Source of the DNA: Vibrio sp. FE10
Lineage (GTDB): Bacteria; Pseudomonadota; Gammaproteobacteria; Enterobacterales; Vibrionaceae
NCBI RefSeq assembly: GCF_030297155.1
Contig: NZ_AP028068.1
Span: 496,001 to 560,000 of the forward strand
Direction: 5' to 3'
DNA length: 64,000 nucleotides
Shown here: piece after piece, positions 44,033 to 59,478 of the stretch
Layout: each line of letters opens with the position of its first letter
Position numbering within the stretch: the first letter of the stretch is position 1
Program-made: the position numbers and the translations under genes
Notes under the pieces: model-generated
Database searches by the model: none
What the model saw: the letters and a program-made list of their open reading frames with translations, nothing else
What the model was told of the DNA's origin: nothing

Positions 44033-44212
44033 ATGTTTAACAAGAAAAAGCAGCGCGGTGCGGCCGCTATCGAATACGCAATCCTCGCAGCAGCAATGTC
44101 TGTGGTCTTGCTTAATTTTGTAGGCGGCGAGAATGGTGATCTAACCGAAGCCATTACTGACGCTTACGAAACTGTCGTCAAGCAGCTCAAAGACGCTCAA
44201 AAATCAGAATAA
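44033..44212 (+). CDS. flp: Flp-family type IVb pilin
   Basis: This small pilin has 59 residues: a short basic leader (MFNKKKQRG), then AAAIEYAILAAAMSVVLLNF. The Gly/Ala processing site with Glu and Tyr at +5 and +6 is the Flp signature. Prepilin peptidase cleaves after Gly9, and the mature subunit polymerises into the Tad pilus, which mediates tight surface attachment. The C-terminal part is hydrophilic and acidic-basic. It is first in the tad cluster, 30 bases before cpaB. A prepilin peptidase gene (tadV) normally found next to flp is missing here. Confidence 0.95.
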   Translation: MFNKKKQRGAAAIEYAILAAAMSVVLLNFVGGENGDLTEAITDAYETVVKQLKDAQKSE

Positions 44213-44242: not shown

Positions 44243-45124
44243 ATGACTGCCAAGCGACTCATGTTGCTGTCGTTATTTTGCTCGGTGCTCGGATTGTCCG
44301 TTTTACTGTTGAGCCAAACCAATAGCGAGTCTGTGACCACCTCTTCTAAACAAGCCGCTAAGCAAACGGTCAAAGTGCTGGTTCCAACTCGTACGATTGA
44401 GATAGGCCAAACCTACACGCCAAACTCGTTTCGATGGAAAGAAGTTCCACAGCAAGAGTTAGAGAACTACATCGACCACGTGGCACCGGAAGATATTTCT
44501 GCCGACCACACGATGTCAGGGCTAGCACGCACCAAACTCGTCAAAGACTCAATATTGTCGAAAGCGGACATTACCGAGCCGAAAGGTGGCTACTCGCTCT
44601 CATTGAAGTTGCAACCAGGCTATCGCGCGATTTCAGTCCCTGTCGATCAAGTCACGTCTAATTCAGGCTTCATTGAGCCGGGCGACCGAGTAGATATTCT
44701 CCTACTCGGTTCACAAGATGGTGAGCTACTTCGTTATGGCAATTCATCTCAAGGACTGTACGTTACAACGATAGTTCATGATGCAAGAGTCTTGGCATTT
44801 AATAATAAGCAAACGGCAGAATCTTATCAAAAGGCTCGGGAATCGAATGGTTTCGAAAATGGTATCCCTGACGACAGCAGTGTCTCTTTAGAAGTGACAC
44901 CCGAGCAAGCAAACCAAGTGGTCCTTGCGAAACAATTAGGAAAGTTAACGCTTGTATTGCGTGGGCAAAACGAGGCTCAAGATCAACCTCAACACGCAAA
45001 TGCAGTGACGCTGAAAGTCATTTCTCCAGACACAACTCAGGTATTACCTGACGTAGGATTGGTGGAATTTAGAGCCGACAATAAAACGGTTAAAACTAAT
45101 ACTGGAGCTGATAACAATGGCTAA
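44243..45124 (+). CDS. cpaB: Flp pilus assembly protein CpaB/RcpC
   Basis: The protein has 293 residues with an N-terminal membrane anchor or signal segment (LMLLSLFCSVLGLSVLLLSQ), a SAF-like domain (about 45-115, VLVPTRTIEIGQTYTPNSF) and the CpaB core with YRAISVPVDQVTSNSGFIEPGDRVDILL, the family hallmark. It is a periplasmic component that stabilises or caps the secretin and may bind peptidoglycan. AAAGGA precedes the ATG. The stop overlaps the secretin start by 8 bases. Confidence 0.92.
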   Translation: MTAKRLMLLSLFCSVLGLSVLLLSQTNSESVTTSSKQAAKQTVKVLVPTRTIEIGQTYTPNSFRWKEVPQQELENYIDHVAPEDISADHTMSGLARTKLVKDSILSKADITEPKGGYSLSLKLQPGYRAISVPVDQVTSNSGFIEPGDRVDILLLGSQDGELLRYGNSSQGLYVTTIVHDARVLAFNNKQTAESYQKARESNGFENGIPDDSSVSLEVTPEQANQVVLAKQLGKLTLVLRGQNEAQDQPQHANAVTLKVISPDTTQVLPDVGLVEFRADNKTVKTNTGADNNG

Positions 45125-46502
45125 TATCTGTCGTTGGTGGGGTGTTCTCCTGCTCTCAAGCCTATGTGTCTCTTTTGCATCTGCAGCATCAACATTTGAT
45201 GTGACGATCAATGAGGCAAGAATGATTCACTTACCAGAAAAAGCTAAATCCATTTTCATCTCGAGCACCCATATCGCTGATTACCAAACCTTGACCAATA
45301 CCAAGGTGATGATATTCGGTAAGCGAGCGGGCAGCGCTACGATCACCGTTTTGAATGAACAAGAACGCGTGATTTATACCAATAAAATTCGCGTGACACA
45401 CAACAGCCGCGAGTTCAATGAACTGGTTAAAAACAAGTTCCCAGAAGCGTCAGTCAACGCGGAATCTCTGGGCGGAAAACTCTGGCTTAAAGGACGCGTT
45501 CCCTCTCCGATGATGGCACACAATATCGTGTCGCTCGCGAAAGGCTACTTATCCCCGATTGTCGGTTCTACCGAACAACAAGAGAGCTCGAATTCAAAAG
45601 GAAACAGTAATTCAACCAATCAAAATCAGCAAACTCAATCCAATGATGATGAGCTAATCAATCAATTGGTTGTCACCATGCCAAATCAGGTCAACATTCG
45701 TGTAAAAATCGCTGAAGTCTCAAGAAATGTATCCAATAAGTTGGGCATCAAATGGGGTTCAATCGCTGGCGGTGTAGGGCAATTTTCGTTTTCAAAGCTG
45801 CCTAATGTCAGTAGTTGGGGCAAGCCGAGCATTACCGCTCTGATTGATGCTCTAGCAACCAACGGCATGATGTCTGTGCTTGCTGAACCTAACTTGACCG
45901 CGATGTCAGGCGAAGATGCGGAGTTTTTGGTTGGTGGACAAGTACCGCTACCACTGATTACGGCTGACACCACTCAAATCGAGTACAAGGATTTCGGTGT
46001 GAAACTGAACTTCACCCCAACCGTGCTCAGCCAAAACCGTATCAGCTTAAAAGTGAATCCCGAGGTCAGTAACGTCTCAATCGAGAGCCAACAAGTGATA
46101 CACGGAACTAACTTCCCTTCTTTTACCACTCGTAGCGCCTCCACCACCATTGAATTGGCGAGTGGGCAGAGCTTCGCTTTAGGCGGGTTATTGAAATCGG
46201 AAGACATTGAACAGCTACAAAAAGTACCGCTTATCGGTGAAATACCGGTTCTCGGTAGCCTGTTCCGATCGACTGAATTCACTCGTAGAGAAACAGAGCT
46301 GGTCATCATTGTAACGGCTTACCTAGTTCAGCCAACTCGTTCGGACTCAATGCCACTCCCAACCGATGGCTTAATCCCGTTGAGCGATGTTGAACGTTTA
46401 CTGGCATGGCCAAGAATTCAACAAAAAACATCAAATAATAAAGCGACTTACACCGACAACCAGAAGCCTCGCTTACTGGGTGACAACGGGTTCTACTACT
46501 GA
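45117..46502 (+). CDS. cpaC: Tad outer-membrane secretin CpaC/RcpA
   Basis: The protein has 461 residues with a signal peptide (ending about residue 23, FASAASTF), an N-terminal pilus-assembly domain with the family segment VTINEARMIHLPEKAKSIFIS, a BON-like middle and the secretin domain (about 180-430). The secretin core is clear: ALIDALATNGMMSVLAEPNLTAMSGEDAEFLVGGQVPLP, followed by VPLIGEIPVLGSLFRS. It forms the outer-membrane pore for the pilus. A Gln/Asn/Ser-rich insert sits near residues 160-178. Confidence 0.94.
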   Translation: MANICRWWGVLLLSSLCVSFASAASTFDVTINEARMIHLPEKAKSIFISSTHIADYQTLTNTKVMIFGKRAGSATITVLNEQERVIYTNKIRVTHNSREFNELVKNKFPEASVNAESLGGKLWLKGRVPSPMMAHNIVSLAKGYLSPIVGSTEQQESSNSKGNSNSTNQNQQTQSNDDELINQLVVTMPNQVNIRVKIAEVSRNVSNKLGIKWGSIAGGVGQFSFSKLPNVSSWGKPSITALIDALATNGMMSVLAEPNLTAMSGEDAEFLVGGQVPLPLITADTTQIEYKDFGVKLNFTPTVLSQNRISLKVNPEVSNVSIESQQVIHGTNFPSFTTRSASTTIELASGQSFALGGLLKSEDIEQLQKVPLIGEIPVLGSLFRSTEFTRRETELVIIVTAYLVQPTRSDSMPLPTDGLIPLSDVERLLAWPRIQQKTSNNKATYTDNQKPRLLGDNGFYY

Positions 46503-46509
46503 GGACATC

Positions 46510-47133
46510 ATGAACAAATTATCCTTATTACTGCCCGCTCTCTTTGCGCTTGCGGGTTGCGCGCCAACGCCTACAACCCAACAACCTTCTGTGGATGTGG
46601 TGTCCGTGACAAACAAGCTGACTTTAACACTGTCGGGTAAAACGTTATCGGCTCAAGAGAAAGATGACATCTCTGATTTTATTGCTCGCCGAGGCACGCT
46701 ATCCAACTTAATGGTCAAGATTGAAAATACGACTCAGAAAGGAGAAAGCCAAAGTGAAAAAATTAGGCTTCGTCTGATCGAGTCAGGCCTCTACCCTTCG
46801 CAAATTTCAGTGTCAGACACTGCGGCGCAAGGTAAAGGCGACATCACGATTTTTCTTGAATCTTATCGAGCCAAAGTAACGGCATGTGACGCAGGGAAAA
46901 CGCCAAGAACCACACTCAACGCTTATCGTACTCAGCGCAATTTTGGCTGTGCGAATGCCAATGCACTGGCGCAAATGGTCGCAAACCCAAAAGACCTGAT
47001 TGTTGGTCAGCCCATCGACAGTGCACAAGGACAAAAAGCTGTGTCCAGCATCGATAACTACTTTGCGCCACCAGCACAAACCCAACAGATAAACTCTGGT
47101 TCTTCGAATACCACGCTAGGAGGTTCGCAATGA
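46510..47133 (+). CDS. cpaD: Tad pilus lipoprotein CpaD/RcpB-like
   Basis: Start is taken at 46510, since TGAGGAC lies just before that ATG; upstream in-frame codons overlap the secretin gene and lack a signal. The 207-residue product has a lipobox (LFALAGC, Cys at about residue 17). The C-terminal half contains NFGCANANALAQMVANPKDLIVGQP, the CpaD signature. The protein is an outer-membrane-associated partner needed for secretin stability. The stop overlaps the start of cpaE as ATGA. Confidence 0.9.
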   Translation: MNKLSLLLPALFALAGCAPTPTTQQPSVDVVSVTNKLTLTLSGKTLSAQEKDDISDFIARRGTLSNLMVKIENTTQKGESQSEKIRLRLIESGLYPSQISVSDTAAQGKGDITIFLESYRAKVTACDAGKTPRTTLNAYRTQRNFGCANANALAQMVANPKDLIVGQPIDSAQGQKAVSSIDNYFAPPAQTQQINSGSSNTTLGGSQ

Positions 47134-48290
47134 ATCAAGTACATAATTTAACGGTACTCATCGCGGCATCGGAGCAACTCGATACATTAGCGCTCACATA
47201 CACACTGAATGATTTCGGTATCAACAACATCAAGACCTCTTCGAATCAAGAAGATGACGTGGTGAGACAGGTACTGAAGAACGACGTTAAAACCATCTTC
47301 CTCGATGTACTGAATAGCGAATTGCCAGAGTCGAAACAAGTTGTGCAGCGCTTAATACAACGTACTGGCTGCCAAGTTATCGCGATTGGTCATTCAGCCG
47401 AAATTTTTGCTTACCGTGGAATGCTCGCATCCGGTGCCAGTGACTATTTAGTCAACCCTGTGACACCACAAGATCTTGAACACGTCTCCTTTGCTGCTTT
47501 GCAACTCAACAACGAAAAACGAAATGAAAAAATCGTTTCCATTGTCAGTTCAAAAGGTGGCTCAGGAAGCAGCACCATTATAGCGACGTTATCGCAGCAG
47601 CTTGCCGAACTCGGGAAACGAGTAACTTGTATGGACCTCGATTTTTCGATGGGTGATTTGGATTTGCTACTCAATGTAGAAGGCAACACGGCGTTGGTAG
47701 AGCTTTTACAATACCCAGAAAGATTAGAACCTCTCGTATTTGAGCGCAGTGGGATCAGTGTGTCACCCGAGCACACGCTCTTTACCGGTTATCTACCTTT
47801 AGACACCACACCATTTTGGCCACAAAAGATTGCATTCGATCAGTTTACAAAGTTCTGCCTGCAAAGTTCAGACTACTTATTGATCGACATCCCGACCTAT
47901 TCATTGCGTGACCAGGTTGGCTTTGAAGCGCTTAAAAGTGCCGATATTCGAATCATTGTGGTTGAACCTACACTCAGCTCCATTCGCAATGCTGGTCAGA
48001 TAATCAAACGACTTCAAAACCAAGCGACTTCACAAACCATTGTGGTGTTGAACCATTGTAAGTCCGATTCCGCATCCCTTATTTCGGTCAATGATGTGAA
48101 GAAATCACTCGGAACATCCGTAGACGTCGTGATTCCGTTTTTGCCTAACCATTTCCTGAGCAAGTCATCGCTTGGTCAGCCTGCCCATAAAGGCAATAGG
48201 AAAGTGAAGCTCGCGTTTAACTCTCTACTTGAACTAGTCACTGGTGAGCCGCAACAAGGCAGCCGCCGTTTTTGGAAGCGAGGCGCATAA
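47130..48290 (+). CDS. tadZ: Tad pilus localisation ATPase CpaE/TadZ
   Basis: The protein has 386 residues: an N-terminal receiver-like domain (1-125) lacking an obvious phospho-acceptor Asp pattern, then a ParA/MinD-type ATPase (about 135-375). The deviant Walker A is SSKGGSGSSTIIATL, and the switch region is MDLDFSMGDLDLLLN. TadZ acts at the inner-membrane face to place the pilus machine at the cell pole. A perfect AGGAGG precedes the start. The stop overlaps tadA as TAATG. Confidence 0.92.
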   Translation: MNQVHNLTVLIAASEQLDTLALTYTLNDFGINNIKTSSNQEDDVVRQVLKNDVKTIFLDVLNSELPESKQVVQRLIQRTGCQVIAIGHSAEIFAYRGMLASGASDYLVNPVTPQDLEHVSFAALQLNNEKRNEKIVSIVSSKGGSGSSTIIATLSQQLAELGKRVTCMDLDFSMGDLDLLLNVEGNTALVELLQYPERLEPLVFERSGISVSPEHTLFTGYLPLDTTPFWPQKIAFDQFTKFCLQSSDYLLIDIPTYSLRDQVGFEALKSADIRIIVVEPTLSSIRNAGQIIKRLQNQATSQTIVVLNHCKSDSASLISVNDVKKSLGTSVDVVIPFLPNHFLSKSSLGQPAHKGNRKVKLAFNSLLELVTGEPQQGSRRFWKRGA

Positions 48291-49633
48291 TGTTTGGTCA
48301 GAACACACAAGCCTTAGATTCGATTGAAGCGAATAGAGCTCGAACACATGAATCCCTAACATCAACACCTTCGGTTCGTGAGCATTATCACGTGATTCAT
48401 GAAGAGGTCATCAAGGCGATCGACCCATCGGTTGTAGTGAGCTTAAGTGCACCCGATCTTGAAGCTAGAATTGCCGAAATGGTGTCAGATATCGTGGTCT
48501 CTAAGCAGTTACCGCTTGGTCACAAAGATGTCGCTCATTCGGTGGAACAATTGCTCAATGAGTTTCTAGGATTAGGTCCACTGCAGCCCTTAATCGAAGA
48601 CCAAGGCATTACCGACATCATGGTCAATGGATACCGTGAAGTCTACGTAGAACGCTCAGGGAAATTGCAAAAAACGGCCGTTCAATTTCGCAATGAAGAA
48701 CAACTTCTCAACCTAGCGCGACGCATCGTCAGCAAGGTTGGACGAAGAATCGATGAATCGAATCCATTAGTCGATGCTCGGTTGGATGATGGTAGCCGTG
48801 TCAATGTGATGATCCCACCGCTAGCGCTTGATGGAACCTACATTTCCATCCGGAAATTCAATGAGAATAAGCTAACACTCAGCCAATTGGCTCAGTTTGG
48901 CGCAATGTCGAAATCGATGGTTAAGCTTATCGATATTATTGTTCGCTCACGCCTTAATGTGCTTGTTGCGGGAGGCACTGGTGCAGGTAAAACCACCCTG
49001 CTCAATGCGATGTCTTTTAGCATTTCACCTCAAGAACGCATCATTACCATTGAAGACACCGCAGAACTGCGTCTACAACAGCCTCATGTTGTGCGCGCTG
49101 AAACTCGCCCAGCCAATGCCGAAGGCTTAACGCCAATTACCCAGCGAGAGTTGGTGCGAAATGCTCTACGTATGCGACCAGATCGCATCATTTTAGGCGA
49201 AGTTCGTGGCGATGAAGCCTTTGAAATGATGCAGGCAATGAACACCGGCCATGATGGTTCACTGTGTACATTGCATGCAAACTCGGCGACTGACGCACTC
49301 GTTCGCATGGAAAACATGTTGATGATGAGCCAAGCGACTCTGCCTCTGTTCTCATTGCGCCGCCAAATCGCAGACACCATCGATGTCGTTATACAAGTCG
49401 AAAGAATGCGTGATGGCAAACGACGCATTGTTTCGATAACCGAGGTGCAAGGGTTAGAAGGAGAACAATACATCACTCAAGACTTGTTCAAATTCAAGCC
49501 TTTATCGGAGGATCAACAAGGCAACCTAATTGGCGAATACAAGAGTGCTAAGTGCGTACCAAGCTTCAATGAAAAAGCCAAATACCACCAACTCGATGCT
49601 CAACTCAGAGTAGCGATGGAGCTTGAAGCCTGA
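48290..49633 (+). CDS. tadA: Tad secretion ATPase TadA/CpaF
   Basis: This 447-residue type II/IV secretion hexameric ATPase starts at the ATG at 48290, coupled to the tadZ stop; a TTG 18 bases upstream is less likely. The N-terminal domain is about 1-200 and the ATPase follows: Walker A GGTGAGKTTLLNA near residue 226, the Asp-box EDTAELRLQQPHV, Walker B region PDRIILGEVRGDEAFEM and the His box GHDGSLCTLHANSATDAL. It powers pilus extension and, in the Tad system, probably retraction. Confidence 0.96.
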   Translation: MFGQNTQALDSIEANRARTHESLTSTPSVREHYHVIHEEVIKAIDPSVVVSLSAPDLEARIAEMVSDIVVSKQLPLGHKDVAHSVEQLLNEFLGLGPLQPLIEDQGITDIMVNGYREVYVERSGKLQKTAVQFRNEEQLLNLARRIVSKVGRRIDESNPLVDARLDDGSRVNVMIPPLALDGTYISIRKFNENKLTLSQLAQFGAMSKSMVKLIDIIVRSRLNVLVAGGTGAGKTTLLNAMSFSISPQERIITIEDTAELRLQQPHVVRAETRPANAEGLTPITQRELVRNALRMRPDRIILGEVRGDEAFEMMQAMNTGHDGSLCTLHANSATDALVRMENMLMMSQATLPLFSLRRQIADTIDVVIQVERMRDGKRRIVSITEVQGLEGEQYITQDLFKFKPLSEDQQGNLIGEYKSAKCVPSFNEKAKYHQLDAQLRVAMELEA

Positions 49634-50547
49634 TGATCCTAGTTCTCACTGTTTTTGTTTTGTTTGTCGCGATTGGGTTAATCAGATTGAGCTCTAAGCA
49701 AGCCATCGTCAATAAACGGCTGTTATTAGTATGCGGCAGTCAACGCTCGCTTTCAGCTGACGTTTCAATCAAAAAAACCAACCACCAGCGTAGCAACAAA
49801 CTGCATGCTTTCTTTTTACGAATGAATGCATTGCTACCAGTTTGGGATAAGTACTTTATTGCCTTGTCAGCTATCGGCTTCCCTGCATCTGGCCACATGT
49901 TATTTCCCCAACTGGCAATGCATCATCAACTTTTCGCCGCTGTTGGACTTTGGTTTGTATGCACATGTGCCTTGGTGATGTACCGCCGAAAAATGCAGGT
50001 AGAAGAGTTCGAACAAGGCATCATCAATGTACTTGGCTTAATTTCTAGAGCGGTGGCTGCAGGGCTCTCAGTCCCACAAGCAATTGAACAAGTGTCAGAA
50101 ACCCAACCTGGACTGCTAGGACGTGAGTTCTCGTATATTCGCGATAATTTAACACTCGGTTTAAGCCTTCGCCAAAGCCTCGATGATGCATGCGTTCGCC
50201 TTCCTTACAGCAGTTTCCGCTACTTCTCGGTCGCGTTGATCCTCAATCAATCGAATGGTGGCCAACTGCGCGACATTCTTCAAAGCTTGAGCAGAACCAT
50301 GCATGATAATCGAGCGATGAGAAAAAAGGTCAAAAGCTTAACCTCGGAGCCTCGTATGACAGCCCTCTTTCTCTCTATCTTACCCTTGGGGTTATTGGGT
50401 GGTATCTATTTGATGGAACCCACCATGATCGTCCAATTGTTCAACACAGAATCGGGACAGCGGGTACTAACCTACGCCGTCATTAGCATCAGCTCAGGTA
50501 CACTCATTTTGAACGCTCTGACTCGTAACAAAAGGTTCTCATCATGA
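49633..50547 (+). CDS. tadB: Tad inner-membrane platform protein TadB
   Basis: This 304-residue polytopic protein has membrane segments at the N-terminus, near 85-115 and at the C-terminus. The cytoplasmic T2SSF domain (about 135-260) contains ISRAVAAGLSVPQAIEQVSE and LRQSLDDACVRLPYSSFRYF. It forms the platform on which TadA acts, together with TadC. Start and stop overlap both neighbours (TGATG and ATGATG). Confidence 0.93.
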   Translation: MILVLTVFVLFVAIGLIRLSSKQAIVNKRLLLVCGSQRSLSADVSIKKTNHQRSNKLHAFFLRMNALLPVWDKYFIALSAIGFPASGHMLFPQLAMHHQLFAAVGLWFVCTCALVMYRRKMQVEEFEQGIINVLGLISRAVAAGLSVPQAIEQVSETQPGLLGREFSYIRDNLTLGLSLRQSLDDACVRLPYSSFRYFSVALILNQSNGGQLRDILQSLSRTMHDNRAMRKKVKSLTSEPRMTALFLSILPLGLLGGIYLMEPTMIVQLFNTESGQRVLTYAVISISSGTLILNALTRNKRFSS

Positions 50548-51395
50548 TGTATGTTGCCTTGCTTCTGTTGGGATGTGCATTACTACTGACAGTTGTCGCA
50601 CACTTGTCTTCTTTCAAACGAGATGTTGTCGCTGAGCGACTGACTCGCGTATCGAGCTACTCCTCTAAGTACACCACCGCTTCAAGTAAATGGCGCTTCC
50701 AAGGTGCAAAACCGCGACGCCAGAAGTTAACCCTCATTGGCTGGTTGAGTCCTAATGCAGAGACCTATTTTCTTGGCTTAAGACTACTGACGATGGCGAC
50801 TGGATCTATTGCTTGGTATGTCACTCGAATCCAAGTGCTTAACATGAACTCTGTGGCCGAATGTATCGCAATCGCCATTGTGGTCGGCATCCTGTTCGAC
50901 CGCATTCTAGATTGGCGCGTGAACCAAATCCGAATGCAAATTAGCCGCGTTATTCCTGATGCAGTCGATCTGATGGTGGTATGTGTCGCATCAGGTCTAA
51001 CACTCGAAGCGGTATTTCGCTGTGTCGGTGAAGAGATGCGTGCGATCTCTCCAGCATTGTCACGCGAATGGCTCCTCACTGCGACTGAGATATCGGTTCT
51101 TGATTCACCACAAACGGCACTTTCAAACCTAGACAAACGAGTCCAGCTTCCTGACATCAACAATATTGTGACCACCATGAATCAAGCACTTCAATACGGC
51201 ACGCCTCTCGCTGAAGCATTAAAGCTGATTGCCTCTGATAGCCGCCAATATCACTTCTTAGAGCTTGAAGAGTGGGTAGGAAAAATACCCGCTAAGATGT
51301 CGTTCCCTTTAGTGGTCTTCATCATGCTACCTGTCGTGGGCATTATTGTCGTGCCAATCATGTTATCCCTTAAACAAACTCTGGGGGGCTTATGA
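50544..51395 (+). CDS. tadC: Tad inner-membrane platform protein TadC
   Basis: The protein has 283 residues with the same overall plan as TadB: two N-terminal membrane helices, a T2SSF domain (about 125-250, IPDAVDLMVVCVASGLTLEAVF) and terminal hydrophobic helix FPLVVFIMLPVVGIIVVPIML. With TadB it forms the paired platform typical of Tad systems. The first two codons are both ATG, overlapping the tadB stop. Confidence 0.93.
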   Translation: MMYVALLLLGCALLLTVVAHLSSFKRDVVAERLTRVSSYSSKYTTASSKWRFQGAKPRRQKLTLIGWLSPNAETYFLGLRLLTMATGSIAWYVTRIQVLNMNSVAECIAIAIVVGILFDRILDWRVNQIRMQISRVIPDAVDLMVVCVASGLTLEAVFRCVGEEMRAISPALSREWLLTATEISVLDSPQTALSNLDKRVQLPDINNIVTTMNQALQYGTPLAEALKLIASDSRQYHFLELEEWVGKIPAKMSFPLVVFIMLPVVGIIVVPIMLSLKQTLGGL

Positions 51396-52132
51396 ACAAG
51401 ATCATTCTCTTGGGTTTAGCGCTGATTTTAGTCGGCTGCCAATCAACGAATAACATTGAAAAAGAGACCTCTGAAGACATGAAAGTTGCAGAGGTTGCAC
51501 TGATGAATGGCAAACCAGAAAGTGCCATGGAACTGTATCGAAAGATGCTGATATCGAAGCCTGATGACCCGCAGCTACTCTTGCTAATGGGGTCCGCTGC
51601 GAATCAAGCGAGTCGTTATGATGAGGCGTTGCATTACCTAAAACGTGGTATCGAGCTTAATCAATCGAGCGCGATTTACAGAGAACTTGGCCGTGCGTGG
51701 TTGGCGCTCGGTGAGCTTGAACAAGCAACAATAGCTCTCGAGGAATCTGTCAGGTTAGTAACAACTGATGACGTTGCCCAAAACAGTTTAGGCGTGAGTT
51801 ACTCGCTCAATAAGCAGTATTCAAAAGCGCGTGAATCTTACTCTCATGCCCTCAGCTTGATGCCATCCAGTAATGAGTATCGCAACAACTTAGCCATGGC
51901 TTGGATACTCGATGGAAAACCAGAGCAAGGGATCCGAATTCTGCACCCGATCTTTGTCCGAGGAGAAGCGAGCGTAAAGCTGCAACTTAATCTAGCACTG
52001 GCTTATGCGCTTTCTGGAGACAGTGCGTCCGCGAAAAGTATCGCTCGTGCACATCTATCTCAACCTGAGTTCGCCAACAATAGTCTTTATTACCAAGAGC
52101 TTGCTGCTAAAAATGAGCAGGGAGAACTGTGA
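51392..52132 (+). CDS. tadD: TPR lipoprotein TadD
   Basis: This 246-residue lipoprotein has a lipobox LILVGC (Cys16) and about four tetratricopeptide repeats between residues 35 and 240, including AMELYRKMLISKPDDPQLLLLMGSA and EALHYLKRGIELNQSSAIYRELG. It resembles PilF/PilQ pilotins and probably helps assemble the secretin. It is coupled to the neighbours by overlapping stop/start codons. Confidence 0.92.
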   Translation: MNKIILLGLALILVGCQSTNNIEKETSEDMKVAEVALMNGKPESAMELYRKMLISKPDDPQLLLLMGSAANQASRYDEALHYLKRGIELNQSSAIYRELGRAWLALGELEQATIALEESVRLVTTDDVAQNSLGVSYSLNKQYSKARESYSHALSLMPSSNEYRNNLAMAWILDGKPEQGIRILHPIFVRGEASVKLQLNLALAYALSGDSASAKSIARAHLSQPEFANNSLYYQELAAKNEQGEL

Positions 52133-52581
52133 TGCTCTCTCGTCAAAAAGGGGCGCAGACCGTCGAGTTTGCAATGTTGGTGGTACCGTTCCTGATACTG
52201 ATCATCGGTTTCTTTGAGATCTGCCGCCTGCTGTTGGTCAACATCATCCTTGATGTAGCCGTTAATGCGGGTGTTCGTGAGGCCAAGACACGGCCGATTA
52301 GTCCTATTTCAGACCAAGCTTTTGCCGAGACTATCGCAAAGTTCCCACTGATAGATAAGAGCAAGCTCGTCTTGGATCCATCGCCGCTATACGCCGAAAA
52401 CTTCTCAGATTTAGTTAATGAGAAACCGGTATCCAAAAGCAGAGCAGTGTTAGGCGAGTACAAGGTGTCTTACTCATTTTCATTTGCCTTATTGCCTAAT
52501 CTATCAACTCAGTTTTCTGAGTCTATCGGCGACATGACAACCTTGAAAAGAAAGGTACTGGTTAGTTATGACAACAAATAA
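52132..52581 (+). CDS. tadE: TadE-like minor pseudopilin
   Basis: The protein has 149 residues from the ATG at 52132 (GGAGAA 5 bases upstream). An N-terminal short leader precedes KGAQTVEFAMLVVPFLILIIGFFEICRLLLV, the TadE motif with Gly before the cleavage site and Glu at +5. Such pseudopilins are cut by prepilin peptidase and join the Tad pilus base or tip. The rest is periplasmic. It overlaps tadF by 14 bases. Confidence 0.9.
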   Translation: MLSRQKGAQTVEFAMLVVPFLILIIGFFEICRLLLVNIILDVAVNAGVREAKTRPISPISDQAFAETIAKFPLIDKSKLVLDPSPLYAENFSDLVNEKPVSKSRAVLGEYKVSYSFSFALLPNLSTQFSESIGDMTTLKRKVLVSYDNK

Positions 52582-53131
52582 AACACCTCGAAAAAAACAA
52601 GCGGGTTCAGCAGCGATTGAATTCCCCTTCGTTGTACTCGCACTCATGATCATTTTGTGGGGGCTTGTTGCTACCTACCGCTTATTCAACCTACAGACTC
52701 AGCTCGACAACGTGACATATAACCTAGTCAACGCCGTTTCACTAACGCACCTGAAACCAGAGCAAGGCCCAAACGGATGGCCTAATACGTTAAAGGATCA
52801 GCTTCTCGATCTCGCCGAACGTTATCTTCCGCAAAACATTAAGCGCAGCAATATTGGGCTGGTACTTGAAAGCCGTGTATTTGATACCACCGCTTCGAAC
52901 TGGGAATACAAGCCCATCATCCATGCCGGAATCACCTGTCAAAAGTACACACCCATCGATCAACTAGAGACACTTATCGTTGAGGGAAGCGGCGACCCTG
53001 CGTTAGTTGGAAGACAATCCACCTTGGTTCAACTCACTTTATGTGTGAATACACCGTTTGACTACAAGCGGCTCGATCTTCCTAAAACACTCTCAAGTTC
53101 ATCAGTTGTGATAGGAAAGCATTATGGTTAA
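52568..53131 (+). CDS. tadF: TadF-like minor pseudopilin
   Basis: The protein has 187 residues. The leader KKQAGSAAIEFPFVVLALMIILWGLVATYRLF shows the same G-x-x-x-I-E-F processing site and hydrophobic stem as TadE. The middle and C-terminus are periplasmic with two Cys residues. It was assigned as TadF by position between tadE and tadG. It overlaps both neighbours (14 and 8 bases). Confidence 0.86.
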   Translation: MTTNKTPRKKQAGSAAIEFPFVVLALMIILWGLVATYRLFNLQTQLDNVTYNLVNAVSLTHLKPEQGPNGWPNTLKDQLLDLAERYLPQNIKRSNIGLVLESRVFDTTASNWEYKPIIHAGITCQKYTPIDQLETLIVEGSGDPALVGRQSTLVQLTLCVNTPFDYKRLDLPKTLSSSSVVIGKHYG

Positions 53132-54338
53132 ACCAATATTCGGCAGCATTGCGCTTAAAAAACAGCAAGGCTCCATGACCATTTCATTCTTGGCGTTACT
53201 GTTTCCAGCGCTTTTCATCGCTGTTGGCACCCTGATGATCTCCGCACAAGTGATGGTTTCAAACCGAGCAGCGCAAGCCGCCGATTCGGCCGCATTAGCG
53301 TGTGCTTTTGCTGATACAGCCACACACCCAATGATGTTGGCTTACCAAGATTACTATAAGCCAACCCTAAAAGGCGTGAGTGGCTTAAAACCAGAAATCA
53401 TAGGCTCTGAATGCCGTATTAGCCTAGGCTATTCATTATCACCCTTACTGCCCAACTTCAAATATGAGAGCTATGCAAACAAGGTAACGGCGACAGGTGG
53501 TGGTTATAAAGGTGTGGTTGAAAGCAAGCACTCTTCGATTCCAACGGAGCTAGTACTGGTACTTGATGTGTCTGGATCGATGGGTTCAAACATCCAGTCA
53601 TTGAAATCCATTTTATCCAATGCTTTGAATACGATTCAATCTCAGAGTAAGAACGCTAACGATTTAGATTCAATTAGAATTTCAATCGTTCCTTTCGACT
53701 CTGGCGTTGCAGCGCAGCGCCCACCTTGGTTATCCAAAGAAGCAGCCGGAATCTACTGTATCGATGGGCTTAGCTATCGTAGTGGCAATTTCTCTGCGGC
53801 ACTGACCGTCGATAACCTAGCGACGCTTCACTCAGAGCGACCGGTGAAATTTACACCGCCAAGTCAATGGTTAAGCGACTGTAATCAAGATTCACCAATG
53901 CTGCCATTGACCAACGTATTTTCCCGCGTCCAAAACTCGATAAACAGCCTAACAGCAAATGGCGGTACTCGCTCTTATCACGGTTTGGTATGGGGAGTGA
54001 GGCAGCTTATCCCACGCTGGCAACAAGCATGGGGATTGAACGCCAGCACAGTACCCGAAACCAGAAGAAAATTGGTGCTTTTTACCGACGGAGATGACAG
54101 TGGAGACGCGTTCACCCAACTGGTTAACGCCGGGTTCTGTACTACCGCAATCAATCAATATGGCATCGAAATGAATTTCATCGGCTATGGCGTCAACCCT
54201 TCTCGAATCGCTCAATTCGAGAACTGTGCAGGGGATACACAACGCGTGTTTAGCGCCACGAATACCACCCAACTCAACGAGTATTTTTCCGACATTTTAG
54301 CCGTTGAATACTCGGCAACCATCAAACTCACTCGCTAA
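53124..54338 (+). CDS. tadG: TadG, VWA-domain Tad component
   Basis: The 404-residue protein begins with a pseudopilin-like stem (KQQGSMTISFLALLFPALFIAVGTLM). A von Willebrand A domain follows (about 140-395) with an intact MIDAS first motif DVSGSMGSN and a later FTDGDDSGD. TadG is needed for pilus anchoring or stability and binds a divalent metal through the MIDAS. AGGAAAG lies just before the ATG. This is the last recognisable tad gene, 84 bases before the thioredoxin gene. Confidence 0.9.
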   Translation: MVKPIFGSIALKKQQGSMTISFLALLFPALFIAVGTLMISAQVMVSNRAAQAADSAALACAFADTATHPMMLAYQDYYKPTLKGVSGLKPEIIGSECRISLGYSLSPLLPNFKYESYANKVTATGGGYKGVVESKHSSIPTELVLVLDVSGSMGSNIQSLKSILSNALNTIQSQSKNANDLDSIRISIVPFDSGVAAQRPPWLSKEAAGIYCIDGLSYRSGNFSAALTVDNLATLHSERPVKFTPPSQWLSDCNQDSPMLPLTNVFSRVQNSINSLTANGGTRSYHGLVWGVRQLIPRWQQAWGLNASTVPETRRKLVLFTDGDDSGDAFTQLVNAGFCTTAINQYGIEMNFIGYGVNPSRIAQFENCAGDTQRVFSATNTTQLNEYFSDILAVEYSATIKLTR

Positions 54339-54422: not shown

Positions 54423-54887
54423 ATGTTTACACGAGCCTTAGCGCTATTGGCGCTGTGCCTTTCTTTGCCAACATTGGCTTATCAAGAAGGGGATTCGCTG
54501 TCGCCAGACGTCATCGAAAAACTTCAACTCAACAAGGATGAACTGACCATTGTCGACTTCTTTGCAGAGTGGTGCGTCTCTTGCCGCGAAGAGCTACCAG
54601 AAGTTAATCAACTCTACACCGAACTCAAAGGCACAGGCGTCACGTTTAAAGGCGTTGATGTGGATGAAGATGTCGAGGTTGGCTTGGCGTTTCAAAAGCA
54701 GCTCGGATTGGAGTTCCCTGTTGTTAACGACCCTGAACAAGCGTTGATCGCAGAGTTTAAACCTATCGGTATGCCTGCGCTTTACTACATCTATCAGGGC
54801 AAGGTTATCAAGATTCGTTTTGGTGCCATTAACCACATTAGTGACGTGATAACTGACGACCTCACCCAAATGGGAGTGCAACTGTAA
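54423..54887 (+). CDS. Exported thioredoxin-like protein (TlpA/ResA type)
   Basis: The start at 54423 is preferred because GGAG at 54413-54416 lies 6 bases before it; an ATG at 54411 in the same frame would overlap that site. The product has 154 residues, with a signal peptide of about 18 residues (FTRALALLALCLSLPTLA) and a thioredoxin fold. The redox pair Cys51/Cys54 is in FFAEWCVSCREE, and the cis-proline region is IGMPALYYI. It probably acts as a periplasmic thiol reductant fed by DsbD, which is encoded four genes later. It is coupled to the DUF4266 gene as TAATG. Confidence 0.9.
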   Translation: MFTRALALLALCLSLPTLAYQEGDSLSPDVIEKLQLNKDELTIVDFFAEWCVSCREELPEVNQLYTELKGTGVTFKGVDVDEDVEVGLAFQKQLGLEFPVVNDPEQALIAEFKPIGMPALYYIYQGKVIKIRFGAINHISDVITDDLTQMGVQL

Positions 54888-55387
54888 TGCTAATCAAAGC
54901 CACCCTTGTTGGGCTATTAGCTATTCCAATGACTGTTAATGCGGCTCTTGAACTCGATCTTAGTGGTTTAGGAAAGAAGCCCGCAGAACAGCAAACAAGT
55001 AATAGCAGCACAAATAGCGATGGTCCTATCGTTGAAGAAGAGATCATCTCCAGCACCGTTTATTCAAGTGGCGGTGATTATTCAAACCCAGAAGCGAAAC
55101 GTGCAACCAGACGAAACATTGAGATGGTTAAACCCAAGGCAAAGCAACTGGTTATCGAACAGAAAGCACCTGAAGTGAGCAACAAACCTTCTGCTCTGGC
55201 TTTTGTTGATGAGTTTCTTGGTATTGAACCCGTAAAGCCTTGGGAAAAAGGCACATTGGCTCAAAAAGAGATGAAGCCCGGCGGCACAGTACCTGAATTC
55301 GACGTCTTTTCTGAAAAGGTATTCGCTTACAAACAAGGTTCCGTCGGCGGCAGTGGCGTTGGTGGCGGAGGCTGTGGTTGTAACTAA
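54887..55387 (+). CDS. DUF4266-like exported protein with GGGGCGCN C-terminus
   Basis: The protein has 166 residues with a signal peptide (MLIKATLVGLLAIPMTVNA), a low-complexity Ser/Glu-rich middle and a C-terminal DUF4266 module beginning VKPWEKGTLAQKEMKPGG. It ends KVFAYKQGSVGGSGVGGGGCGCN. The terminal Gly run with two Cys is the family's striking mark. DUF4266 proteins I know of are short and often lipoproteins; this one is longer and has no lipobox. The role is unknown. Its neighbours (thioredoxin, DUF3570, ApbE, DsbD) suggest that the Cys pair or Gly-rich tail is a redox or cofactor site. Confidence 0.82.
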   Translation: MLIKATLVGLLAIPMTVNAALELDLSGLGKKPAEQQTSNSSTNSDGPIVEEEIISSTVYSSGGDYSNPEAKRATRRNIEMVKPKAKQLVIEQKAPEVSNKPSALAFVDEFLGIEPVKPWEKGTLAQKEMKPGGTVPEFDVFSEKVFAYKQGSVGGSGVGGGGCGCN

Positions 55388-55436
55388 CCGCTCCTTCAAC
55401 GAATAAATCAGTACTTCAAAACAAAATAAGAAAAAA

Positions 55437-56663
55437 ATGAAAAAACTACCAATTACGCTGCTTAGTGCAGCGGCAGTGGCTAACGTTGCATTAGCTGAAG
55501 ATCATATCTCTGTTCATTACCTTAGCTATGAGGAATACGATGACAGAGTATCAGCCAATGACACTATGGTTTCGATTGAGAAAAGTATCGGCTTAGATTG
55601 GACATTAAACGCAGAGATAAGCTACGACAGTATTTCTGGCGCCTCACCAGCGTGGGGACCAACGACACCTCTTGCTTCGAATGCCGATCAGATAAGTCGC
55701 GCCCTAAAAACTCAACAAGCACAGAATAAAACCGACGAGGTTATTCGTGCAGGCTACGACCCTCATCGCAGTGGCTATGAAATCCAAAAAGTAGGCCTTG
55801 AAGACACCAGAAAATCCATCAGTTTAAGCGCGACCTATCGCGACACCTTACGTAATGAATGGACCTTAGGTGGCAACGCATCTCAAGAAGAAGATTATGA
55901 AAGCCTTGGCATTAACGCCAAAGGTTTGGTCTATGCCGATAGCACTAAAAACCGCTCTTACAGTCTAGGGGGCTCTGCCCTTTTCGATCAGACTCAAGCA
56001 TTCGGCAAATACTCGCTGGCTTCATCAAACAGCCAGAGCTGGGAAGACATTTTCACGGGCAGTTTAGAAGCCGGATTATCACAAACCTTCACGCCGAATC
56101 TATACAGCATTTTTACCGCTTACACGGGTTACCGCAGTGGCTATTTGAGCAATCACTATTTAACGGTTCTGCGTGAAGTTGATATCAATGACGACGGTAA
56201 AATCGATGACGATGAAGTGTTCTTGGGGCAAGATTCTCGACCGGATACGCGACTCTCTGGCGGTATTAATATCCAAGCCTTTTACTCATTGTCCGACAGT
56301 TTAAAAATCCGACCAAGATACAAATGGTTTATGGATGATTGGGGTGTAATGTCTCACCAGTTAGGCGGTAAATTATCTTGGCGAGTGAGTGAATGGTTAA
56401 CGTTAGCACCGGGTTATTTCTGGTACACGCAAGATGCGGCCGATTTCTATCGCGACCCAAGTAGTGCCGATCCTTCATTTGCTTCATCAGGCTACGCAAC
56501 TTCAGATCTGCGCTTGGGTAACTTCACCGCCAATGCCTATGAGCTAGGTGCGAGTATCAAGGTGCATAAGAAATTACGCTTAAATGCGCTTGCTGCATAT
56601 TACGAACAGAGCAACGGTTTTGAAGCGCAATGGTGGGCGGTTGGAGCAACCTATGAGTTCTAA
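55437..56663 (+). CDS. DUF3570 outer-membrane-like protein
   Basis: The 408-residue protein has a signal peptide (MKKLPITLLSAAAVANVALA) followed by many alternating amphipathic strands and a C-terminal aromatic residue (Phe), as in outer-membrane beta-barrels. The N-terminal strands read ISVHYLSYEEYDDRVSAND and SIGLDWTLNAEISYDSISGAS, matching DUF3570. An EF-hand-like acidic insert (DINDDGKIDDDEVFLGQDSR) occurs near residues 245-265 and may bind calcium. It lies between DUF4266 and ApbE genes; the apbE start overlaps its end. The function is unknown. Confidence 0.85.
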   Translation: MKKLPITLLSAAAVANVALAEDHISVHYLSYEEYDDRVSANDTMVSIEKSIGLDWTLNAEISYDSISGASPAWGPTTPLASNADQISRALKTQQAQNKTDEVIRAGYDPHRSGYEIQKVGLEDTRKSISLSATYRDTLRNEWTLGGNASQEEDYESLGINAKGLVYADSTKNRSYSLGGSALFDQTQAFGKYSLASSNSQSWEDIFTGSLEAGLSQTFTPNLYSIFTAYTGYRSGYLSNHYLTVLREVDINDDGKIDDDEVFLGQDSRPDTRLSGGINIQAFYSLSDSLKIRPRYKWFMDDWGVMSHQLGGKLSWRVSEWLTLAPGYFWYTQDAADFYRDPSSADPSFASSGYATSDLRLGNFTANAYELGASIKVHKKLRLNALAAYYEQSNGFEAQWWAVGATYEF

Positions 56664-57630
56664 TCTACCCTTTGTGCACCGCTTTCATGCGATGACAGTG
56701 CCGTGTGAAGTGCAAATTTTGTCGATTGATTTGGCTACCTTTCCAGAGACAAGTGCAACAGCAATCGCGACTGAGATAGAGCAAAACACACGCCGATTAG
56801 AAGACAAATATAACTTCTACTGCGACGACTCGTGGCTAACACAATGCATTAATCAACGATCATCATGTGATGTCGAACTCGATTCTGAATCTGCCGAGGT
56901 TTTCCAACACCTCGACCGATTAAGTCAACTGACCTTCGATACCTTTGATACTACGGTCGGCAGCATCAAACATCTTTTAAAACAGAAACCGAAGATGCTC
57001 CACAGTCATGCTTTCCAAGCCTTGTCTTCTGCTTTGGGTAAGCAAGCTTGGGAATTGAAAGGGACAATGGATCAAAAAGGGGCTGTCGATCTACAAGGGG
57101 CTGTCGATCTACAAAGGGCTGTCGATCTGCAAAGGACAAGGCTACACGTCCCTGACTCACGCACTCGTTTCGATTTTGGTGGCGTCATCAAAGAGTACGC
57201 CGTTGACCAAGCCGTAGAGATCGGCAAACAACTCGGCGCGACGTCAATGTTAGTGAACTTTGGCGGTGACATCTATGCGTTAGGCACCAAACCGGATGGC
57301 TCGACATTTAACATTGCTGTCTTAGACCCAAGAGACAATAAGACTCCATTTTTCGCAGTGCCCCTAACCAATGCAGCTCTGACGACTTCGGCTCACAGTG
57401 AACGCCAAATACAATTTGGTGACAAGACCACTTCTCATATCTTGTCGAAGCAGGATGTTGAGCAGAAGATCCTTTCTGTTACCGCTATCTCGTCATCCAC
57501 ATTGGAAGCCGGCGTGCTCAGCACTTCTCTGACACTAAACCCCAATATTTCGGTGCCGGAAGACAGCGCTGTTATCTACATCGACGATCAATTACACATT
57601 CACCAAAACACGGAGTTCCTTCATCCATGA
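56653..57630 (+). CDS. apbE: ApbE-type FAD:protein FMN transferase
   Basis: The start is the ATG at 56653, inside the end of the DUF3570 gene, with TTGGAG upstream; the 325-residue product has no signal peptide or lipobox. The ApbE core is present: RFDFGGVIKEYAVDQA (about 173-188), VNFGGDIYALG and ALTTSAHSERQ, where the usual SG motif is altered. ApbE proteins move FMN from FAD onto Thr or Ser of target proteins using magnesium. Three copies of GAVDLQ/RAVDLQ sit at residues 143-160. The absence of an export signal is unusual, because characterised ApbE proteins of this type are periplasmic. Its target is unknown; its operon partners are candidates. Confidence 0.88.
   Translation: MSSNLPFVHRFHAMTVPCEVQILSIDLATFPETSATAIATEIEQNTRRLEDKYNFYCDDSWLTQCINQRSSCDVELDSESAEVFQHLDRLSQLTFDTFDTTVGSIKHLLKQKPKMLHSHAFQALSSALGKQAWELKGTMDQKGAVDLQGAVDLQRAVDLQRTRLHVPDSRTRFDFGGVIKEYAVDQAVEIGKQLGATSMLVNFGGDIYALGTKPDGSTFNIAVLDPRDNKTPFFAVPLTNAALTTSAHSERQIQFGDKTTSHILSKQDVEQKILSVTAISSSTLEAGVLSTSLTLNPNISVPEDSAVIYIDDQLHIHQNTEFLHP
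57079..57132 (+). repeat. 18-base tandem repeat (three copies) inside apbE
   Basis: Three 18-base units (GGGGCTGTCGATCTACAA twice exactly, then one with two changes) encode GAVDLQ, GAVDLQ, RAVDLQ just before the active-site motif. The unit is in frame and copy number could vary between strains. Confidence 0.95.
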
Positions 57631-59423
57631 AGTGCTACCTACTTACGTTAATTCTATTGTTTAGCAGCTTTTTGCATGCTCAAGAAAACGAGTTTCTTCC
57701 GGTTGAAGAGGCCTTCCCCGTTTCATGGGAAGCCACAGACCAAGGCGCGGTCATCAGCTTTGATACACACAAAGGCTACTACCTGTATCAATCTCGATTT
57801 TCGTTCAAAGGGGAGTCTTCATTATCAACGTTAGAACCGATCTATTCGCTACCAGGTGAAGAGAAAGAGGACCCTAACTTTGGCAACGTCGTCGTGTTTC
57901 ACGAGCCCGTTACCGTTACTGTTCCTTATTCGGGAAGTGGCAAACTCACCGTGCGTTATCAAGGCTGCGCAGACAAAGGACTTTGCTACCTGCCGCAAAA
58001 GCTAGTGCTCGATTTGCCGATGCTCGAAACCGTATCTAAAGCGCTGGTTGAGGAGCCATCAAACTCTCTGGTTCAAACCTTAGGTGAGATCCGTGAGGAC
58101 ACGAATGGCTTGTCTTCGTTCCTATCCCAAGCCGGTAAGTTACAAGCACTGCTTGTGTTCTTCTTGCTTGGCCTAGGCTTGTCCCTAACGCCATGTGTAC
58201 TGCCGATGATTCCGATTTTGGCTAGCATCATCGGTGGCGAAAAAGCGATGACAGGCAAGAAAGGCGCGGCACTCTCTAGTTCCTATGTTCTGGGTATGGC
58301 GACCAGCTATGCAATGACGGGGATCTTAGTCACTACATTAGCAAAAGGGGTCAACCTGCAAGCCGCGATGCAACAGCCTTGGTTGTTAACTAGCTTTGCG
58401 GCGGTTTTTGTTCTGCTTGCATTGGCGATGTTCGGATTCTATGAACTCCAATTGCCTGTTGCCCTACAGCAAAAACTCAACAGCGGTTCAGACAAGCTTG
58501 GCGGCGGTAAGATCGCCAGTGTCTTTGCCATGGGCGCAATATCAGCCTTGGTCGTGTCACCTTGTGTCAGTGCTCCATTGGCTGGCGCGTTGCTTTACGT
58601 CTCAACCACTCAAGATTGGATGTTTGGCGGAGCGACTCTGTTCGTTATGGCTCTCGGTATGGGCGTACCGCTTATCGCTATCGGAGCTAGTGGTGGACGT
58701 CTATTATTAAGAAGTGGCGCATGGATGGTATACGTTAAGCAGGTATTTGGCGTGCTGCTATTGGCAGTTGCTATCGTGCTATTAAGCCGCTTTGTCGCTC
58801 CATCGATCATTATGATCTTATGGGCGCTGCTTGCTATCGGTACTGGTGTACATTTTGGGGCTTTAGAAGCTGCACAACCGGGTTGGGCGCGTACTCGTAA
58901 GCTCTCTGCTTTGCTACCACTGAGCTACGGTTTAATCTTGTTTGTCGGATTTTTCTTAGGTAATACCGATCCTCTAAACCCACTTGCAAACAGGGAGTCA
59001 GTCCAATCCGTTGCGAGCACTCCCTTTGAAAAAACAGACTCAATTGATCAGCTAGAACAACAGTTACAAGCCGCTGCCAATGCCGATAAAAAGGTGCTGG
59101 TCGATCTTTATGCGGATTGGTGTGTCTCTTGTAAAGTGATTGAGACCAACGTGTTCAATGACCAACAAGTGAGCCAACAGCTTAAAGAGTGGAAGACGAT
59201 AAAACTTGATGTGACAGAAAGCTCTCCCGAGCAAATGGCGTGGCTCAATGATAAGAATGTATTTGGCCCACCAGCGATTTTCTTTTACTCACCCGCCAGC
59301 GGTGAAATAGAGCCTGCGCGAGTGATGGGAGATATTGATAAAGAGGGGTTCAATAAAAAACTCAAACTTGCCAATAAGCTCGCTTACACACGAACAACAG
59401 AAGCTGATAGCCAAACGAACTAA
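57627..59423 (+). CDS. dsbD: Thiol:disulfide interchange protein DsbD
   Basis: The protein has 598 residues with a signal peptide (YLLTLILLFSSFLHA). The three DsbD domains are complete: N-terminal alpha domain with Cys114 and Cys120 in YQGCADKGLCYLP, the eight-helix beta domain with Cys190 (LTPCVLPM) and Cys313 (VSPCVSAPL), and the thioredoxin-like gamma domain with Cys499/Cys502 (DWCVSCK). DsbD carries electrons from cytoplasmic thioredoxin to periplasmic thiols. It overlaps apbE by ATGA and closes the operon. Vibrios usually have a dsbD elsewhere, so this may be a second, operon-dedicated copy (inference). Confidence 0.94.
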   Translation: MKCYLLTLILLFSSFLHAQENEFLPVEEAFPVSWEATDQGAVISFDTHKGYYLYQSRFSFKGESSLSTLEPIYSLPGEEKEDPNFGNVVVFHEPVTVTVPYSGSGKLTVRYQGCADKGLCYLPQKLVLDLPMLETVSKALVEEPSNSLVQTLGEIREDTNGLSSFLSQAGKLQALLVFFLLGLGLSLTPCVLPMIPILASIIGGEKAMTGKKGAALSSSYVLGMATSYAMTGILVTTLAKGVNLQAAMQQPWLLTSFAAVFVLLALAMFGFYELQLPVALQQKLNSGSDKLGGGKIASVFAMGAISALVVSPCVSAPLAGALLYVSTTQDWMFGGATLFVMALGMGVPLIAIGASGGRLLLRSGAWMVYVKQVFGVLLLAVAIVLLSRFVAPSIIMILWALLAIGTGVHFGALEAAQPGWARTRKLSALLPLSYGLILFVGFFLGNTDPLNPLANRESVQSVASTPFEKTDSIDQLEQQLQAAANADKKVLVDLYADWCVSCKVIETNVFNDQQVSQQLKEWKTIKLDVTESSPEQMAWLNDKNVFGPPAIFFYSPASGEIEPARVMGDIDKEGFNKKLKLANKLAYTRTTEADSQTN

Positions 59424-59443: not shown

Positions 59444-59478
59444 AAAATCGCCCAATCATAAATTGGGCGATTTTTTCT
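59444..59478. terminator. Bidirectional terminator after dsbD
   Basis: The 13-base stem AAAATCGCCCAAT/ATTGGGCGATTTT has a 5-base loop and a T-run. It lies between convergent dsbD and the phosphotransferase gene. Confidence 0.9.

Follow-up and report, generated by a model that had tools for sequence, protein, structure and literature searches.

The closest described relatives of the system considered here are flavinylation gene clusters with DsbD, 285 of which are reported in the main text of Méheust et al. (2021, eLife 10:e66878, PMC8238504). As described there, these clusters typically hold ApbE, DUF3570 (227), a thioredoxin-like protein (183) and DUF4266 (221), and a hybrid thioredoxin and flavin route supplied by DsbD was proposed. 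The same text reports that DUF3570 of Chlorobium luteolum is flavinylated by its own ApbE at two [ST]GA[ST] sites, the pair being co-expressed in Escherichia coli by a strategy like that used for signal-truncated proteins, and that most of the DUF3570 was in the pellet and was extracted with guanidine. Here, we describe a gene set of this kind in a 64,000-nucleotide stretch of DNA from Vibrio sp. FE10 (hereafter, the window), in which genes for thioredoxin, DUF4266, DUF3570, ApbE and DsbD stand directly behind those of a Tad (tight adherence) pilus. With moderate confidence, we propose that the five genes, likely in one operon with the pilus genes, encode a Tad-linked thiol-to-flavin relay, which would carry cytosolic electrons to flavin mononucleotide (FMN) on the DUF3570 barrel.

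The window set shares with the clusters of Méheust et al. the grouping of DsbD, ApbE and DUF3570, DUF4266 with its CxC end, the [ST]GA[ST] motif in DUF3570 and, apart from the Pfam family matched, the thioredoxin-like protein. It differs in its place behind a Tad cluster, in a non-lipidated DUF4266 with a linker, in the CVSC motif of thioredoxin and in the number of flavinylation motifs in DUF3570, namely one in the window protein and in 37/37 of its type, whereas DUF3570 of C. luteolum has two. Also, an ApbE without a leader and with the Glu/Gly change described below was not met in the text of PMC8238504. Tad, pilus or pili are not mentioned in its main text; the supplementary cluster table may list such neighbours. 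In the open-licence literature, covered by titles and the starts of abstracts, we found no further paper on DUF3570 or DUF4266 and none joining Tad or tight adherence pili with ApbE, DsbD, thioredoxin or flavin. The steady link of the five-gene set to the Tad pilus appears to be new.

An earlier note on this DNA had read the five genes as a possible uncharacterised redox or flavinylation system. The kind of system was rightly named, and the co-occurrence of its genes is strong, but "uncharacterised" does not hold: the cluster had already been described and partly tested, and the central hypothesis, with DUF3570 as the FMN carrier, is already in print (main text of PMC8238504). That note did not mention the Tad pilus genes that lie just upstream, nor that ApbE is leaderless and altered.

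Five redox genes directly behind a Tad pilus cluster

Open reading frame (ORF) calls and Pfam matches place thioredoxin, DUF4266, DUF3570, ApbE and DsbD on one strand at 54423-59423 (Table 1), with spacings of -1, +49, -11 (counted from the ATG at 56653) and -4 bases in gene order, so that the tight linkage with three overlaps, as claimed before, was borne out. In terms of the extent of the unit, the five genes are real, but the coordinates first given to it were too short, the same-strand run opening at the Flp pilin gene (44033). As in Tad gene clusters elsewhere, Flp, CpaB, CpaC, CpaD-like, TadZ-like, TadA-F and TadG-like genes stand in one run in the window; Flp pilin, CpaB, secretin, TadA, TadB/C and TadE/F are all found, and no gene intervenes between this cluster and the redox genes on the same strand. 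The protein in the place of TadG gives a Tad domain match of 0.001 (19.8 bits), which is under the cut-off of 22.3, and the ATPase at 47130-48290 is presumably TadZ, a name that we take from its position. At the junction of TadG and thioredoxin, no terminator-like site was found, and one site follows dsbD, in a scan that equals shuffles overall (10 sites vs 9.9 in shuffled sequences, i.e., no better than chance). A promoter scan was set aside, with 4 hits vs 11.4 in shuffles.

The ORF of thioredoxin is open from 54411, and its start was taken as the ATG at 54423 with GGAG upstream. This protein matches PF00578, PF00085, PF13905 and PF08534, with no match at E 0.01 to PF13899, the family of the Méheust set. 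DsbD scores 561.8 bits against PRK00293 (cut-off of 330).

Distribution and linkage of the gene set

DUF3570 was found in 11/61 genomes of the genus and 95/369 of the class, and the window DUF3570 was matched in 36/394 genomes of the order. We collected 161 loci, namely the window, two sets of 60 and 20 regions from the surveyed genomes and 80 named loci (the best 80 of 517). These were picked by DUF3570 from a fetched part of the positives, include near-duplicates, are in some cases cut by contig ends and count some genomes under both handle and name; the counts are hence not independent. Among the 161 DUF3570 loci, DUF4266 is present in 157, thioredoxin in 145, ApbE in 126 and DsbD in 66, and this co-occurrence is more than chance. 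Conserved co-occurrence, for which the earlier note had named a neighbourhood survey of DUF4266 as a check, is strong in these loci picked by DUF3570.

Tad genes were seen at 36 loci of the window type (near-duplicates included), while L116 is of the same type and has no upstream sequence. All six genes, in the order TadG, thioredoxin, DUF4266, DUF3570, ApbE and DsbD, are present on a single strand in 35 of these 37 loci, whereas L116 and L267 are cut by contig ends; the gap between TadG and thioredoxin ranges from -65 to 199 bases, and the identity of TadG to that of the window falls as low as 26%. In the genus, close relatives of the window TadG (E up to 1e-10) occur in 10/61 genomes, and these are exactly the ten with a Tad-type DUF3570; the Fisher value for this association, 1e-11, ignores kinship and is not to be leaned on. 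The eleventh DUF3570 genome of the genus (G022) has a lipoprotein-type cassette with no Tad hits. TadC-like genes are found in 55/61 genomes of the genus, and 20 other Tad loci fetched from 19 genomes, including two from the window's own genome (G000:C1 1712000-1728000 and G000:C2 1388500-1404500), have none of the five redox genes and in all 20 cases a more distant TadG. Within the order, the same arrangement was found in families f184 (nine genomes), f192 (one) and f197 (one), and also in a record of Marinobacterium, which we take to belong to another order.

The Tad-linked form has features of its own. DsbD is present in 36/37 Tad-type loci vs 30/124 others, and loop 2 after the FMN site of DUF3570 has 51-56 residues in 11 Tad-linked rows vs a median of 40 (range 15-102) in 113 others, which is a tendency within a wide range. 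In a quick, unrooted tree of DUF3570 (rows all under 90% identical), the Tad-linked rows are on one side of a branch with 99% support (11/124 rows), and so are those in a TadA tree (34/52 rows, 99% support), which is also quick and unrooted, gave a long-branch warning and has the cassette-less loci of the genus as its contrast group. By these trees, the Tad linkage fits a single origin.

The relay might then work as in other bacteria and be unrelated to the pilus, with tad and the redox genes brought together in a single chance event and co-inherited thereafter. We regard this as doubtful, albeit worth serious weight: each tree has the Tad-linked rows as one group, 124/161 DUF3570 loci belong to the other type, and at least two genomes (G576 and G571) hold both a Tad-linked and an unlinked cassette, whereas a chance joining sits less well with a gene order complete in all but the truncated loci in spite of the divergence of TadG, and with the DUF4266 anchor, the thioredoxin motif and the loop length, which differ between Tad-linked and unlinked forms.

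Likely FMN site of the predicted DUF3570 barrel

We aligned 68 DUF3570 sequences, that of the window and a selection of those at the named loci. Asp64, Gly68 and the acceptor Ser/Thr70 are conserved in 68/68, and [ST]GA[ST] is exact in 59, the remaining nine deviating at the third place only. In a wider alignment of 124 rows, the acceptor column is Ser/Thr throughout, Asp is kept in 121 rows and Gly in 119, and the full D..[ST]GA[ST] is present in 138 of all 165 DUF3570 hits. These motifs suggest that the FMN carrier is likely DUF3570 and not DUF4266. The earlier note had allowed ApbE to add FMN to either protein; DUF3570 indeed has the motif, but DUF4266 of the window has no [ST]GA[ST] and was rejected as the acceptor.

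The window DUF3570 is 98% identical to a protein of a V. splendidus record, which puts the genome close to that species. Its predicted structure (predicted local distance difference test (pLDDT) 86.7, predicted template modelling score (pTM) 0.82) has 16 strands by count and would suit an outer-membrane beta-barrel in being closed, in its even strand number and in its terminal aromatic residue. Structural matches of the model are ordinary barrels (OmpG, CymA and BamA), and a search of the PDB by sequence gave nothing (best E 0.36). With the barrel oriented by convention (ends inside, long loops outside), Ser70 is predicted to be in strand 3, before the long loop 2, in the upper half and, as judged by the alternation of hydrophobic residues, facing the lumen. 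Of the 44 most conserved residues, a cut chosen by us, 37 are on the loop side, which contains 239/385 residues (P 0.0007, with neighbouring residues not independent). The FMN site is likely near the outer mouth of the modelled barrel.

Several variants of DUF3570 were also observed. Epsilonproteobacterial proteins at L122-L125 have three or four [ST]GA[ST] sites and are perhaps multi-flavin barrels. At L057, L067 and L078, the DUF3570 ORF reaches about 900 residues and includes a long additional region. Six DUF3570 proteins are motif-free (L086, L102-L105 and one copy in L164). The group of L102-L106 and L164, mostly without the FMN motif, retains thioredoxin and DUF4266 and has as neighbours two OMP_b-brl proteins and one that bears a hydrazine-synthase-alpha-like domain (as read in representatives); the ApbE found in this group, at L102 and L105, is of the canonical exported type.

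DUF4266 and thioredoxin

CGC followed by one last residue closes 162/162 DUF4266 hits, the last residue being Asn in 156, Tyr in 4, Ser in 1 and Lys in 1. After removal of repeats (by the last 70 residues) and of loci with less than 3 kb upstream, 28 non-lipidated DUF4266 proteins have at least three Tad genes, 99 lipidated ones have two or fewer, and other combinations number 0; two of the lipidated rows have one or two lone Tad hits. Outside this table, L096 has 1511 bases upstream, no Tad hit and a visible LSGC that was overlooked by the lipobox rule. Thioredoxin is divided likewise, with C[VI]SC in 36/36 Tad-linked proteins and CxPC in 96/109 unlinked ones. The model of the window DUF4266 is poor (pLDDT 55), a mere hint of disorder.

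Among the exported and membrane proteins of the window cassette, Cys pairs are found in DUF4266, thioredoxin and DsbD. Because these three hold the Cys pairs, electrons would pass in the order of DsbD, thioredoxin, CGC tail and FMN, and because the window DUF3570 has no Cys and 137/160 DUF3570 proteins have none after residue 45, a thiol relay would need DUF4266. Thioredoxin reductase and mercuric reductase have C-terminal redox arms, in which a flexible tail bears a Cys pair. The DUF4266 tail may resemble these arms in shuttling electrons from a thiol partner to a flavin or back. The likeness would be one of working only, with no kinship claimed, DUF4266 being a protein of its own.

The same thiols could serve other ends. 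DsbD, thioredoxin and DUF4266 might tend disulfides in TadF and TadG, with the flavin barrel as an accessory; in the Tad-linked loci, TadF indeed has two Cys in 29/29 and TadG four, each in 30-31/31. We consider this highly improbable, since Tad loci without the cassette have such Cys residues as well (at least four in TadG in 20/20, and a pair in most TadF), and ApbE, DUF3570 and the loci without Tad would be left unexplained.

Alternatively, the CGC tail might bind a metal that the barrel moves or reduces, the role then being metal uptake or detoxification and not electron export. A flexible tail with a CxC pair is apt for metal binding, and the main text of PMC8238504 reports 25 clusters with the VIT1 iron transporter. 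Of 119 loci outside the Vibrio set, moreover, 32 have a sensor kinase family (representative with 2CSK_N) and 28 an OmpR-type regulator family within 8.5 kb of the cassette (e.g., L072 and L130), the domains being read from one member per family; these neighbours are also a lead towards an inducing signal. DsbD and thioredoxin are, however, thiol reductants, and no metal transporter family was matched by Pfam among the Tad-linked genes of the window. We consider this distinctly improbable; the metal reading and the relay do not exclude each other.

An ApbE with no leader and an altered active site

The window ApbE scores 132.9 bits against PF02424 (curated cut-off of 25.6) and so belongs to the ApbE superfamily. 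Export signals were judged by a hydrophobicity scan (threshold of 1.8) and by eye; neither gave a leader in the window ApbE, which in this respect departs from the canonical exported form, whereas the other ApbE of the genome, beside nqrF (NQR-linked), has a lipoprotein leader. Among linked ApbEs of at least 250 residues from the set of 60 regions and the named loci, 102/104 have no leader. Seven exceed 1.8; L102 and L105 appear to have real leaders, and the other five peak in the first core strand. In the linked ApbE of L307, a value of 2.06 is reached in the stop-to-stop stretch, which may precede its start.

Conserved catalytic residues of ApbE are Ser241, His257 and Asp285 (V. cholerae numbering), according to the text of PMC12052999. 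When these positions were matched by counting from His257, His and Ser were kept in 123/123 linked ApbEs, and Asp was replaced with Gly, together with Glu for the Gly of KGY, in 119; we call this state Glu/Gly and the canonical one Gly/Asp. Of the remaining four, L102 and L105 are Gly/Asp, one is Lys/Gly and one has a gap. The window ApbE is itself Glu/Gly, with Ser and His present, and hence has no canonical triad. In 31 ApbE pieces from 21 genomes of relatives, we found 23 Gly/Asp (in every case with a hydrophobic segment close to the start), 6 Glu/Gly and 2 fragments. A Chlorobiaceae ApbE adjoining DUF3570 and DUF4266 (L309) is Glu/Gly by eye, and its likely start leaves no leader. Relatives of the window ApbE are present in Photobacterium, Shewanella and Moritella. 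The idea of a dead copy was rejected, for Glu/Gly recurs in nearly all of the linked ApbEs, and L309 is alike.

Because nearly all linked ApbEs have no export signal and are of the Glu/Gly type, FMN is probably attached in the cytosol, ahead of the export of the barrel, and Glu may, as we infer from the sequences, compensate for the lost Asp. The guanidine-extracted pellet of DUF3570 in the E. coli co-expression reported in PMC8238504 fits cytosolic loading of an unfolded protein. A cytosolic ApbE of Klebsiella pneumoniae likewise has no export signal (text of PMC12052999), but its target is the soluble fumarate reductase, unlike the likely target of the window ApbE, an exported barrel. As a separate observation, apbE of the window has an in-frame short tandem repeat (AVDLQ units, ~57079-57135), the copy number of which varies among Vibrio relatives.

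A proposed thiol-to-flavin relay, probably made with a pilus

In the relay that we propose, DsbD would bring electrons from cytosolic thioredoxin across the inner membrane to the exported CVSC thioredoxin, from which they would reach the CGC pair that DUF4266 bears on its flexible glycine tail; this tail would reduce FMN bound to Ser70 of the DUF3570 barrel, and FMN near the outer mouth could hand them to an acceptor outside, e.g., a metal oxide, a ferric complex or a quinone. The leaderless ApbE would already have attached FMN in the cytosol, the barrel being exported unfolded afterwards, and in the Tad-linked DUF4266 a long, probably disordered linker would replace the lipid anchor. Relay and pilus are probably produced together, and cells held by the pilus could also reduce the surface that they are held to. 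This proposal draws on gene order, linkage, motif conservation and the absent leader and Asp of ApbE.

Several points weigh against the relay. Under a single origin, many loci are not independent, and one chance joining that was then kept is possible; the 124 loci of the other type are, furthermore, a majority of the 161. The full motif is missing from 27/165 DUF3570 hits (18 differing at the third residue only, 3 with no Asp and 6 with no motif), and the single motif of the window type stands against two flavinylated sites in C. luteolum. A strands-only flip test of conservation at the outer end is not significant (P 0.089), the 44-residue cut being our own, and the outer loops overall are no more conserved than the strands (mean 1.46 vs 1.97 and 1.70). 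How electrons would get through the barrel from the periplasm to FMN is a guess, with the model of DUF4266 being poor. The pilus role is the weakest step of the mechanism.

A bolder form of the proposal would make the Tad pilus itself a redox organelle: the non-lipidated DUF4266 with its long linker would be carried by or through the Tad machine and meet FMN of DUF3570 at the cell surface, allowing a cell held by its pilus to reduce solid surfaces through thiols and flavin, with no cytochrome. Here, too, FMN would be loaded in the cytosol, ahead of barrel export, by the leaderless ApbE, the active site of which has been rebuilt in this reading. We deem this improbable.

Feature coordinates and neighbouring genes

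Table 1. Coordinates in the window of the redox genes, the Tad pilus genes and associated features
Feature	Position	Strand	Evidence
Exported thioredoxin, motif CVSC	54423-54887	+	Thioredoxin 1.8e-10, AhpC-TSA 3.9e-12
DUF4266 protein, 166 residues, no lipobox Cys, long linker	54887-55387	+	PF14086 6.8e-18, residues 116-166
C-terminal tail GGGGCGCN with CxC thiol pair, end of DUF4266	55361-55384	+	
DUF3570 outer-membrane barrel, likely FMN carrier	55437-56663	+	PF12094 2e-84
FMN-attachment motif DSISGAS, acceptor Ser70 (predicted)	55626-55646	+	SGAS = residues 67-70
ApbE, FMN transferase, no visible export signal	56653-57630	+	PF02424 2e-38
DsbD, transmembrane thiol electron carrier	57627-59423	+	PF02683 9.9e-83, PF11412 6e-24
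Terminator-like hairpin 3' of dsbD	59444-59474	+	13-pair stem and T run
Flp pilin	44033-44212	+	PF04964 E 1.7e-8, above cut-off, at G000:C2:540042-540167
RcpC/CpaB	44243-45124	+	PF16976 4.8e-27
CpaC/RcpA secretin	45117-46502	+	PF00263 3.9e-44
CpaD-like lipoprotein	46510-47133	+	PF09476 4.2e-27; start picked by eye
TadZ-like ATPase	47130-48290	+	AAA_31 5e-10
TadA secretion ATPase	48290-49633	+	T2SSE 1.8e-63
TadB	49633-50547	+	T2SSF 8.5e-21
TadC	50544-51395	+	T2SSF 4.8e-15
TadD (TPR protein)	51392-52132	+	TPR families
TadE minor pilin	52129-52581	+	PF07811 1.5e-8
TadF minor pilin	52568-53131	+	PF16964 6.5e-20
TadG-like VWA protein, last gene before the redox genes	53124-54338	+	VWA_2 9.7e-8

Directly upstream of the Flp pilin gene, on the same strand, an ORF for a lipoprotein-like protein of 1622 residues is found at 39100-43968. 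Two proteins recur near the cassette at other loci (L085, L087, L092, L093, L096-L098 and L164), namely a DUF1501 protein and one of 513 residues that has no Pfam match.

Conclusion

The loosely described flavinylation cluster becomes a set of testable parts: a pilus partner, a likely FMN site by the barrel's outer mouth, a CxC tail that is the likely step from thiol to flavin and a leaderless subtype of ApbE. An ApbE loading FMN before export would run counter to the usual picture of a periplasmic lipoprotein, and the constant association with a pilus would point to joint action of attachment and redox chemistry at the surface. If true, some marine bacteria would have a cytochrome-free electron route to the cell surface, which is made along with an attachment pilus.

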